A stretch of DNA of 64,000 nucleotides from Collibacillus ludicampi (GTDB lineage: Bacteria; Bacillota; Bacilli; Tumebacillales; BOQE01). The notes under the pieces were generated by a model. The model searched no databases, was not told where the DNA came from, and worked only from the letters and a program-made list of their open reading frames with translations. The position numbers and the translations under genes are program-made. The stretch spans positions 2,512,710 through 2,576,709 of the forward strand of contig NZ_BOQE01000001.1 of NCBI RefSeq assembly GCF_023705585.1, written 5' to 3'. This document shows, in pieces, positions 11,247 through 60,754 of the stretch; the first letter of the stretch is position 1; every line of letters begins with the position of its first letter.

Positions 11247-11882
11247 TCATTTTTCGAACATGATCATCGGTTCATGCAATGGCTGTGAATCATCTTTTTC
11301 GAACCGGATCGTCCAATTAATCACTTTCCCGGTAATGAAGACGGCCAAGATGGTATACAAGACTTTGTTCAGTGGAAGGAAAAACAAGGATAATCCCAAG
11401 ACGATTAAGTCCAGGATAAGAAACACGTTTCCGATGGATATCCCTGTATATTTGCTGGCGAAAATGCAAAGCAGGTCTTCGCCTCCCGTGGCGCCACCTG
11501 ATCGCAAAACGAGGCCTGCGCCCAAACCGGTAACCAGTCCAGACAGAATCGAAGCCACGATCATCGTATGGCTGAAGTCTAATACCAGCGGAGAAAACCA
11601 TTCAAACAATTTGTAGAACAAAGAGAAGGCAATAGCGCCCAAACTCATTCTCAGGATAAATTGGGGACTTTCCCTGAAAAACGCAAGGACGAAAAACGGG
11701 AGATCCAAGAAAAGCACCGAGATCGCAGGGGAAAAATTAAAGACATACTTCATCAAAAGCGAGAGGCCGATAAAGCCGCCATCAGACAAATCGTTTTGGA
11801 AGTTGATGTGGTAATAGCCAAAGGCCAAAATAAACGTACCCAATAAAATCATGATCATTGAGCGAATACTTTGTTTGCTCAT
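11247..11882 (-). CDS. YitT-family membrane protein without the DUF2179 domain
   Basis: A 211-residue integral membrane protein with about five transmembrane helices and the family signature GLVLRSGGATGGEDLL (around residue 125-140). Longer YitT proteins carry a C-terminal cytoplasmic DUF2179 domain of about 80 residues; this one stops soon after the last helix, so it is the short form. The function of the family is not established. Translation starts at ATG 11882 with AGAGG as ribosome site. That site is buried in an RNA hairpin preceded by a second, competing hairpin and a 16-codon leader ORF, so expression is likely controlled at translation. It is monocistronic or followed by a doubtful small ORF. 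Confidence 0.8.
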   Translation of the reverse strand: MSKQSIRSMIMILLGTFILAFGYYHINFQNDLSDGGFIGLSLLMKYVFNFSPAISVLFLDLPFFVLAFFRESPQFILRMSLGAIAFSLFYKLFEWFSPLVLDFSHTMIVASILSGLVTGLGAGLVLRSGGATGGEDLLCIFASKYTGISIGNVFLILDLIVLGLSLFFLPLNKVLYTILAVFITGKVINWTIRFEKDDSQPLHEPMIMFEK

Positions 11883-11890
11883 GTAGGTAA

Positions 11891-12010
11891 CCTCTTTCCG
11901 TAGTGTCTGTCATCAAACCAACTACGGTAGAGGGAAGATCGGTTGTTGAGATCGTATCATCTCTCTTGCCCGTAGTCGGTTGTGTTTTAACGGTTACAAC
12001 CACACTACGG
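11891..12010 (-). promoter_or_regulatory. Putative ermC-like translational attenuator in the YitT leader
   Basis: Read on the minus strand the leader has four complementary arms. Arm 1 (12010-11996, CCGTAGTGTGGTTGT) pairs with arm 2 (11983-11970, ACAACCGACTACGG). Arm 3 (about 11933-11914, including CCTCT and CCGTAGTTGGTTTG) pairs with arm 4 (about 11909-11891, CAGAC, ACTACGG, AGAGG). Arm 4 contains the ribosome site of the YitT gene, so the 3:4 hairpin hides it. Arm 2 can instead pair with arm 3 over about 12 bp (one G-U), which would free arm 4. A short leader ORF ends three bases before arm 1. This is the 1:2/3:4 versus 2:3 switch known from ermC-type attenuators. The pairing is seen in the sequence; function is inferred. 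Confidence 0.6.
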
Positions 12011-12012
12011 CG

Positions 12013-12063
12013 CTAGGTATATGAGAGATCAAATCGTTTCCATATCTGCCTTGAGGGCAACAT
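12013..12063 (-). CDS. Leader peptide of the YitT attenuator (16 codons)
   Basis: A 16-residue ORF, MLPSRQIWKRFDLSYT, with ATG at 12063 and stop TAG at 12015-12013. AAAGGA lies nine bases before the ATG, a good ribosome site. It sits between the promoter and the first hairpin, and its stop codon is three bases from arm 1. A ribosome held at the last codons would cover and melt the foot of hairpin 1:2. No match to a known leader peptide is recognised. It is too short for normal gene finders. Confidence 0.5.
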   Translation of the reverse strand: MLPSRQIWKRFDLSYT

Positions 12064-12092
12064 GGTTTCGAATCCTTTCTGTTATGGATTTA

Positions 12093-12098
12093 ATTATA
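12093..12098 (-). promoter_or_regulatory. -10 box of the YitT leader transcript
   Basis: A perfect TATAAT on the minus strand at 12098-12093. The -35 region is weak (no clear TTGACA at 16-18 bases). Transcription would begin near 12086, leaving about 23 bases before the leader peptide ATG, which fits the attenuator layout. Confidence 0.45.
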
Positions 12099-12232
12099 GT
12101 ATAACACAACGCGTAAAGAGGCGCTTGGTTTTTCGCAAATCAAGGGTCAGAGCCACAAAGATCACCTTTCGTTTATGTTCTTGAAGATTGGCACCATATT
12201 TTTGCTCACATACACACACTTTCATCGTAGAG

Positions 12233-12263
12233 ACATGACGGGATCATTCGTCATGTTTTTTTG
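12233..12263 (+). terminator. Intrinsic terminator upstream of the ROK gene
   Basis: CATGACG, an eight-base loop, CGTCATG and seven T residues form a compact plus-strand terminator. No plus-strand gene precedes it, so it may end a small RNA or antisense transcript across the YitT leader, or shield the ROK promoter from read-through. Confidence 0.6.
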
Positions 12264-40319: not shown

Positions 40320-40820
40320 TGTCGCCGCTCAAACGGCAAAGTGGTTATTGCAGAAAAGCGGGCAACCGCGCCGTTTCTGTAAACGGTGAGGAAAGTCCAC
40401 GCTCGCCCAGGCTGAGATGCCCGGAGTTCGGATGCCTGACGAATTCATAAGTCAGGGCAGCTCGTGTAGAGCTGACGGCGGAGAAAGGAGCTACGTCCAC
40501 AAGGATATGCTCCGATTATCCTGAAAGTGCCACAGTGACGTAGCATCTCTGGAAACGGAGATGGTGGAACGAGGTAAACCCCATCTGCGAGAAACCCAAA
40601 TTATGGTAGGGGAACTGCCGGGAGGGAACAGGAACCAATCGGCGGATCGGTGAAAACCGATAGATAGATGGTTGCCACCGAGTAGTGCAAGGCTTGCAAC
40701 CGCAGCACGAAAGGTACAAAACGTGGCTTACAGCTTTTCTGCAGTGCAGATAACCTGACGGATACGAAAGAGCTCAAGAAGGATGAACGGGGACTCGTAG
40801 TTCTTGGAGCGGCGTATGAC
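40320..40820 (+). ncRNA. rnpB: RNase P RNA, type B (Bacillus class)
   Basis: The catalytic RNA of RNase P, which matures tRNA 5' ends. Diagnostic conserved blocks: GAGGAAAGTCCACGCTCGCC near 40390, GTAGGGGAACTGCCGGGAG near 40600 and AAACGTGGCTTACAG near 40720. Helix P2 pairs GCAGAAAAGC (about 40351) with GCTTTTCTGC (about 40733), and P1 pairs GGTTAT with ATAACC, so the core spans about 40340-40757. An additional outer helix (TGTCGCCGCTC at about 40319 with GAGCGGCG at 40807-40814) suggests a longer precursor or extended P1. The exact mature ends cannot be set from sequence alone. Confidence 0.93.
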
Positions 40821-60454: not shown

Positions 60455-60655
60455 CAACGGGGTGCCCTTTAAAGAGGTTATGCGAGCTTTTTCGAACAAC
60501 CTCTGATCATAAGGGGTAACAGGGAATCGGGTGAAAATCCCGAGCGGTCCCGCCACTGTAACCGGGGAATGTGCTTCCACTCATGTCACTCGATCACGAG
60601 ATCGGGGAAGACGGAAGCACGTGATGATCCGGAAGCCAGGAGACCTACCTCGTTG
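60455..60655 (+). promoter_or_regulatory. Cobalamin (AdoCbl) riboswitch
   Basis: Conserved blocks of the B12 riboswitch appear in order: GGTGCCC near 60462, AAGGGGTAACAGGGAATC near 60510, GGTGAAAATCCCGAGCGGTC, CCGCCACTGTAACCGGGGA (the B12 box region), GGGGAAGACGGAAGC and GGAAGCCAGGAGACCTACC. It binds adenosylcobalamin and shuts off the cbi genes downstream. Two terminators follow before cbiC, so control is probably by transcription termination. Confidence 0.93.
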
Positions 60656-60754
60656 TTCACACTGGTATTGCCTTCGCGGAAAGGGTATCGTGTAGATGGA
60701 TTCTGAGGTAAAGGTATGCCTTCTTAGGTATTCCTTTGGTCTTGAGTGGTGCAC

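Follow-up and report, generated by a model that had tools for sequence, protein, structure and literature searches.

Upstream of a short yitT gene of Collibacillus ludicampi, which encodes a YitT-family membrane protein, lie a small leader ORF and four RNA arms, and judging from sequence comparison this arrangement is likely to be a translational attenuator that operates through arrest of the ribosome at the termination step of the leader. The leader peptide is conserved, the arm pairings 1:2 and 3:4 covary, and so does the pairing 2:3 that excludes both; together, these features point to translational attenuation with the layout known from ermC. The locus is situated on the minus strand of the window, that is, the whole stretch of 64,000 nt analyzed here (positions 2,512,710 to 2,576,709 of contig NZ_BOQE01000001.1), in the order leader ORF MLPSRQIWKRFDLSYT-UAG, four arms, and yitT (Table 1). 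The −10 box, the 16-codon ORF and its ribosome-binding site, all named in an original prediction that had been made from this sequence, are indeed present there.

Table 1. Features of the leader-yitT locus, in window positions.
Feature	Position	Strand	Basis
Extended −10 promoter element TGTTATACT	12098–12106	minus	read from the sequence by the author
Leader ribosome-binding site GAAAGGA	12073–12079	minus	read from the sequence
Leader ORF MLPSRQIWKRFDLSYT, 16 codons, stop UAG followed by C; putative arrest peptide	12013–12063	minus	conserved peptide
Arm 1, 5' side of stem P1	11996–12013	minus	folding and covariation
Arm 2, 3' side of P1; arm 3 as alternative partner	11968–11983	minus	folding and covariation
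Possible second small ORF (uORF2) MIRSQQPIFPLP	11922–11960	minus	weak SD here (−2.5)
Arm 3, anti-SD CCTCT and 5' side of stem P2	11914–11933	minus	folding and covariation
Arm 4, with the yitT ribosome-binding site AGAGG at 11891–11895	11891–11909	minus	folding; SD pairing in relatives
yitT, 211-aa YitT-family membrane protein (PF02588)	11247–11882	minus	140.9 bits

Of the 120 leaders checked, 74 have an element resembling TGnTA(T/C)nnT ahead of the start codon, 42–52 nt before it among the 12 matches listed, and a consensus scan upstream of the leader did not find a full sigma-70 promoter pair. No site resembling an intrinsic terminator was found in the region 11850–12250; transcriptional attenuation was rejected on this ground, and control is assumed to act on translation, as it does in ermC. 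A known cis-regulatory RNA from Rfam was likewise rejected because no family reached the gathering score in the region 11882–12063. The only Rfam matches in the window lie elsewhere, namely, a class B RNase P RNA at 40354–40735 and a cobalamin riboswitch at 60485–60666.

To assess the conservation of the leader, named genomes were scanned for relatives of the window YitT, and the best 80 of 111 were kept. In all of these best 80 loci, the leader peptide is present upstream of the short yitT gene; the loci belong to Aneurinibacillus, Brevibacillus, Paenibacillus and Fontibacillus, plus one Paenibacillaceae record, with Aneurinibacillus thermoaerophilus as the best relative found (71% over the best segment). 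The constant part of the peptide is the C-terminus, IWKRxDLSY[T/I], and the N-terminus is variable (e.g., MCPRRTIPQR... or MRPHR...). A pattern search that fixed W, D and S and left both the stop codon and the next base free missed none of the 80 loci, and the leaders retrieved, of the form W[K/R]xxDxSx(T/I/V), all end in TAG (80/80) followed by C (80/80), with T as the last residue in 60 cases, I in 19 and V in one. Also in a separate search with the stop codon left free, it was TAG in 90 of 90 cases. For comparison, among the stops of 260 ORFs of at least 180 codons that were found mechanically in the same loci, 39 are TAG and 15 are TAG-C. Among 37 distinct cores, R was present in 34, L in 36, S in 37 and Y in 36; only these positions are informative in that table because the regular expression behind it demanded W, K, D and TAG, which were not counted from it. 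The pairwise differences within the last 11 leader codons fall on third positions in 70% of the cases, and the codon differences in the core comprise 2219 synonymous and 1120 nonsynonymous ones, with the reservation that the leaders share kinship and these counts are not independent events. The gene is thus preceded by a short ORF with its own SD, the arrangement typical of ermC-type control, and the conserved C-terminal residues stand directly before a constant stop codon, as is characteristic of termination-arrest peptides. A different origin of the constant UAG-C is conceivable, such as its location at the edge of the stem.

Two further observations concern many of the Paenibacillus and Brevibacillus loci. 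The region around the leader start (GAAAGGATCAGGATACCATG) is apparently more constant than an SD requires, and AGGA motifs recur in both the leader and uORF2. The protein suggested by these motifs might be a GGA-binding one such as CsrA.

The distribution of the leader follows one subclade of YitT. In a sample of 398 Bacilli genomes that were searched with the window YitT (the bit-score tiers were counted by hand), 69 genomes contain a YitT of at least 185 bits, 37 genomes of one family, denoted f20, fall at 158–179 bits, and the matches that follow lie below 147 bits. All 69 genomes of the first tier possess the leader, 65 by pattern and four by reading. Altogether, the leader pattern matched 66 of the 398 genomes, with one match each. 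According to their coordinates, 65 of these matches, all among the 69 genomes, share contig and strand with yitT, and the remaining one (G332, locus L116) was discarded as a chance match in unrelated sequence. Of the four genomes that were read, three (G082, G116 and G146) have the variant ...FDLSDT-UAG. The fourth, G372 (L153), harbors a tandem pair of complete leaders on the reverse strand, MFPQSIWKRQDLSYT and MFPHFIWKRHDLSYT, with starts 106 nt apart; each consists of IWKRxDLSYT-UAG-C and a hairpin, and the hairpin of the first leader adjoins the SD of the second. By eye, no such leader was seen at the paralogue in the window genome (L005) or at two further short yitT loci (L150 and L151). 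In 13 other genomes of the order to which the window belongs, the leader pattern is absent and the YitT search gave no match at E 1e-30; therefore, the window copy may have been acquired laterally, or losses may have occurred elsewhere in the order.

The RNA arms of the window fold largely as had been predicted. Arms 1 and 2 form 16 pairs with −21.1 kcal/mol (13 bp had been proposed), arms 3 and 4 form 17 pairs with −19.4 kcal/mol that include the yitT SD AGAGG, in agreement with the proposed stem of about 17 bp, and the alternative duplex of arm 2 with arm 3 has an energy of −20.4 kcal/mol. The proximity of the leader stop to arm 1 was also confirmed, as the contiguous part of arm 1 begins 2 nt past the stop, at position 12010. 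The leader and arms as a whole fold better than 200 of 200 shuffles (z = −3.99). In a non-redundant set of 29 leaders (<80% identity), from which at least L007, L042, L048 and L111 were not removed in spite of automatic arm calls that look wrong, the mean duplex energies with the own and with a swapped partner were −18.4 and −13.1 for 1:2, −18.4 and −14.0 for 3:4, and −21.9 and −14.5 for 2:3, the strongest gain. The gain was smaller for 1:4 (−13.5 and −11.5), and the control pairings 1:3 (−8.5 and −8.3) and 2:4 (−6.2 and −5.9) did not differ between own and swapped partners.

Covariation was scored by column in two hand-chosen alignments, A1 with 20 rows and A2 with 25 rows; L037, which ends in V, was missed by the selection pattern, and A2 omits L014, L012 and L076 because their divergence was too great. 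In A1, the score was 0.174 for 1:2 plus 3:4, versus 0.053–0.104 for slid structures, and 0.271 for 2:3, versus 0.074–0.155; the corresponding values in A2 were 0.240 versus 0.079–0.158 and 0.281 versus 0.039–0.165, all obtained with structures of single members, a choice that favors the unslid structure. These structures were used instead of the RNAalifold consensus on the wide alignments, from which P2 was absent in A1 and in which it was poor in A2, a failure that we attribute to misalignment of the diverged arms by MAFFT. The numbers of doubly changed pairs in A1 were not clearly above those in shuffles, with 11 compared to 10.0 for 1:2 plus 3:4 (185 of 500 shuffles as high) and 4 compared to 2.2 for 2:3 (66 of 500 as high). 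The 72 nt that follow the stop were also inspected in 101 distinct leaders. In all 101, at least 13 of the first 22 nt past the stop open a pair, versus 23% of the shuffles; P1 pairing begins 0–4 nt past the stop in all 101 as well, which is weak evidence on its own since 63% of the shuffles do likewise. When the last 85 nt were folded, the MFE structure had at least 75% of the yitT SD in pairs for 88 of 101 relatives, versus 51% when the upstream sequence was shuffled. Accordingly, as in ermC-type systems, the target SD is sequestered in the distal 3:4 stem, and, in the main group, there is an apparently selected 2:3 alternative that is exclusive with both 1:2 and 3:4. Both mutually exclusive folds thus appear to be under selection, which is the defining trait of an attenuator switch. 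The original prediction had been made dependent on conservation and covariation of the arms in related genomes, and both were found.

Between arms 2 and 3 there is the start of a second small ORF, uORF2, which, like the membership of the leader in a conserved family, was absent from the original prediction. An ATG just 3' of P1 was found in 27 of the 29 non-redundant leaders. Its SD energy is −4 or better in 24/29, versus 26% of shuffled single 14-mers, a count that is inflated because the best ATG was taken wherever several were available, and in 22/29 at least 40% of the SD window lies within P1. The sequence ATGCGAAGG occurs at the uORF2 start in 40 of 122 loci, and ATGCGAAGGA is invariant across the 25 hand-chosen rows of A2, in which the surrounding arms vary. 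Neither the peptide nor the length of uORF2 is conserved, and codons 4–11 lack clear coding constraint, so that the relevant element would seem to be the start and not the product. A relay is possible, in which the leader ribosome uncovers the start of uORF2 and the ribosomes translating uORF2 open P2.

The f20 family has the same gene in a similar layout with an unrelated peptide. The leader MDTER..LFxLPDF-UAG-C, together with a stem over the yitT SD, was observed in 13 of 13 loci read (L016–L020 and L156–L163, representing 13 of the 37 genomes), and a second ORF, beginning with MNTQTG or MEQMEP, was recognized by eye. In the one case in which it was computed (L156), P2 did not open when the stop and 10 nt beyond it were masked; for this reason, a relay via uORF2 would fit f20.

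In the main group, the effect of masking on the predicted accessibility of the yitT SD was mixed. Averaged over the 29 leaders, accessibility was 0.22 with P1 forced and 0.39 with the 13 nt past the stop masked, compared to 0.19 in a control with 10 nt of the P1 loop masked. A recount from the table yielded increases of at least 0.05 in 16/29 leaders, nearly unchanged values in 10 and lower ones in 3, with a more than twofold increase in 10/29; it is preferred over the scripted count of 23/29, which includes trivial rises. For the window (L004), the values were 0.02 with P1 forced and 0.42 without constraint; masks of 10 and 13 nt gave 0.11 and 0.44, respectively. Apparently, equilibrium folding alone separates the states poorly, and the switch, if it works, must depend on the order of folding.

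The protein encoded by the window yitT matches PF02588 with 140.9 bits (cut-off 24.3). This was the only family detected at E 0.001; DUF2179 is absent and the protein ends at 211 aa, so that it does not belong to the class of long YitT proteins with PF02588 and a C-terminal DUF2179. A Borrelia YitT protein with DUF2179 emerged, according to the accessible part of its source, from a screen for ROS resistance. The window genome contains five PF02588 matches. A confident AlphaFold2 model of the window protein (pLDDT 85.7) had no Foldseek match at E 0.001, and none of the PDB sequences matched the YitT profile at E 1. The S components of ECF transporters 3p5n_A (Z 5.2, rmsd 4.4, 121 aligned residues) and 4dve_A (Z 5.0, rmsd 4.5, 131 aligned residues) gave scores in a range that is uninformative for helical proteins. 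A flavohemoprotein-like motif occurs in 25 of the 80 loci (L038, L039, L041 and 22 more), upstream and on the minus strand among the 6 matches listed; a role of YitT in stress was not adopted since most loci lack this motif.

From these features, the following sequence of events can be proposed. Without the signal, the leader ribosome would terminate rapidly at UAG, 1:2 would re-form, 3:4 would form, and YitT would be off. With the signal, the nascent IWKRxDLSYT in the exit tunnel would slow release at UAG, through an inhibition that depends on the nascent chain and presumably concerns RF1, the factor that reads UAG. It is known from toeprints that a ribosome with a stop codon in the A site covers nucleotides downstream. 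With the conserved residues before the stop and arm 1 after it, a ribosome parked at UAG would cover about 10 nt past the stop and thus much of arm 1; arm 2 could then pair with arm 3, arm 4 would be freed, and YitT would be translated. The pause is probably at termination because arm 1 begins right after the stop. Slow termination had already been named as a possible trigger in the original prediction, and this is compatible with conserved residues that run up to the stop, a constant UAG and an arm 1 that follows directly. In many lineages, opening of arm 1 would also expose the SD of the second small ORF, which extends as far as arms 3 and 4 or in their direction and could hold them open as a relay. 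As the inducer, we favor a physiological signal tied to the cargo of YitT over a ribosome-targeting drug. A more far-reaching version, which is possible although we would rate it somewhat short of probable, is that the leaders form a new class of ligand-sensing arrest peptides in Bacilli: IWKRxDLSY[T/I] (and LFxLPDF) would sense a small molecule in the exit tunnel and block RF1-mediated release at UAG-C, and a two-step relay of RNA and small ORF would switch on the YitT that handles this molecule.

Several other explanations have to be weighed against termination arrest. That the inverted repeats arose by chance or are non-functional is barely credible: 63% of the shuffles pair close to the stop and 51% pair the SD, but the conservation of the peptide, the covariation of mutually exclusive stems, the preference for the own partner and the z-score are at odds with chance hairpins, which were therefore rejected. 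It is somewhat unlikely that translational coupling is the core of the switch, with exposure of the uORF2 SD in arm 2 as the key event and 2:3 as secondary. The frequent ATG behind P1 with its strong SD partly inside the stem, the invariant motif at the start amid varying arms, the first hairpin of G372 next to the SD of the second leader, and the second ORF of f20, together with the closed P2 of L156, all agree with such a relay; yet the covariation of 2:3 is no weaker than that of the other stems, although a pure relay could do without it, the uORF2 peptide and length are not conserved, the start was picked from several ATGs, and in the window itself the uORF2 SD is weak. A slow termination that is constitutive, or set by the supply of RF1 or ribosomes, so that the leader reports the state of translation and not a ligand, is quite improbable. 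It would account for the UAG-C shared by 80/80 main leaders and 13/13 f20 leaders with an unrelated peptide, UAG being decoded by RF1, but would not need the C-terminal residues that are also conserved in the main group.

The original prediction had placed YitT in a response to translation inhibitors. Its structural part, according to which YitT is preceded by a leader peptide and a four-arm translational attenuator organized as in ermC, is borne out by conservation and covariation, but the proposed response is not supported. We consider it unlikely that a ribosome-targeting drug stalls the leader near its stop and that YitT is an efflux or stress protein. The layout does match that of ermC as described in the accessible text of PMC9782665, and, according to the accessible text of PMC10314930, MsrDL provides an example of a drug that acts exactly at the stop codon of a leader. 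Mutations in YitT-family genes have been listed, beside others, for macrolide-selected Mycoplasma pneumoniae and for one pristinamycin-selected mutant of M. genitalium, as far as the accessible parts of these sources go, but this evidence is weak. However, each positive genome has a single match to the leader pattern (65 of the 69 genomes with this YitT, the other four having the leader by reading). A tblastn search of plasmids and phages with the 21-residue leader gave no match up to E 10, with the limited sensitivity that such short queries have; the DNA pattern of the leader was not matched in viral contigs, and no resistance gene was recognized among the neighbors in 14 loci, judged from the N-terminal 70 residues of the encoded proteins. 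A mobile resistance element was rejected on the basis of the plasmid, phage and viral searches, within the sensitivity of a short query. One match per genome, in nearly all genomes with this YitT, and the lack of a mobile match fit a housekeeping gene better.

To our knowledge, there are few conserved arrest peptides, and among attenuators with the ermC layout the best known are those of resistance genes. Here, the leader guards a membrane protein that is an orphan with respect to function, across several families of Bacilli, and finding the agent that stalls the leader would directly suggest the role of YitT; if a ligand is indeed sensed, the leader would open a way towards identifying what the YitT family takes as substrate. 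The constant UAG-C that is combined with two unrelated peptides is a sharp, testable case for RF1-specific arrest. The original prediction had stated that no such control was described for YitT, and in the literature searched, which largely excluded subscription papers, we likewise found no report of a YitT with a leader peptide, translation attenuation or a riboswitch, nor of the peptide itself; the accessible texts of papers that mention both YitT and a leader peptide do not connect them.

In ermC, the downstream SD is located in stem 3:4 and is freed by pairing of 2:3, and ermA has two leader peptides. The leader-yitT locus resembles ermC in its leader peptide, the four arms, the SD in 3:4 and the proposed release via 2:3. 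In contrast to ermC and cat, its peptide is different, arm 1 follows directly after the stop, the controlled gene encodes a YitT protein, and the arrangement spans whole genera among the genomes sampled. No sequence likeness of the leader to the peptides TnaC and SpeFL is apparent. For ermC, the accessible text of PMC9782665 describes attenuation of translation by the structures of four inverted repeats, along with a leader peptide. The accessible text of PMC8429421 reports that release is inhibited at UGA through RF2 by TnaC and through RF1 by SpeFL, and that TnaC acts on Rho-dependent transcription termination; as far as this text goes, inhibition of release at the leader stop would be common to these systems and leader-yitT, and the reliance on SD sequestration distinguishes the latter from TnaC. 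In MsrDL, the ribosome is arrested at the leader stop, release factors are blocked, and UAA is the prevalent stop (PMC10314930, accessible text), so that one prevalent stop codon, UAA there and UAG in leader-yitT, is a shared feature; the MYLIFM peptide, the transcriptional attenuation and the macrolide-resistance operon are differences. What looks new in leader-yitT, from the comparisons made here, is the joining of an ermC-like RNA logic with an apparent termination-arrest peptide, a constant UAG-C and a possible relay ORF, along with tandem leaders in one genome, the unrelated peptide of f20, and a ribosome-binding site of the second start that often overlaps arm 2.
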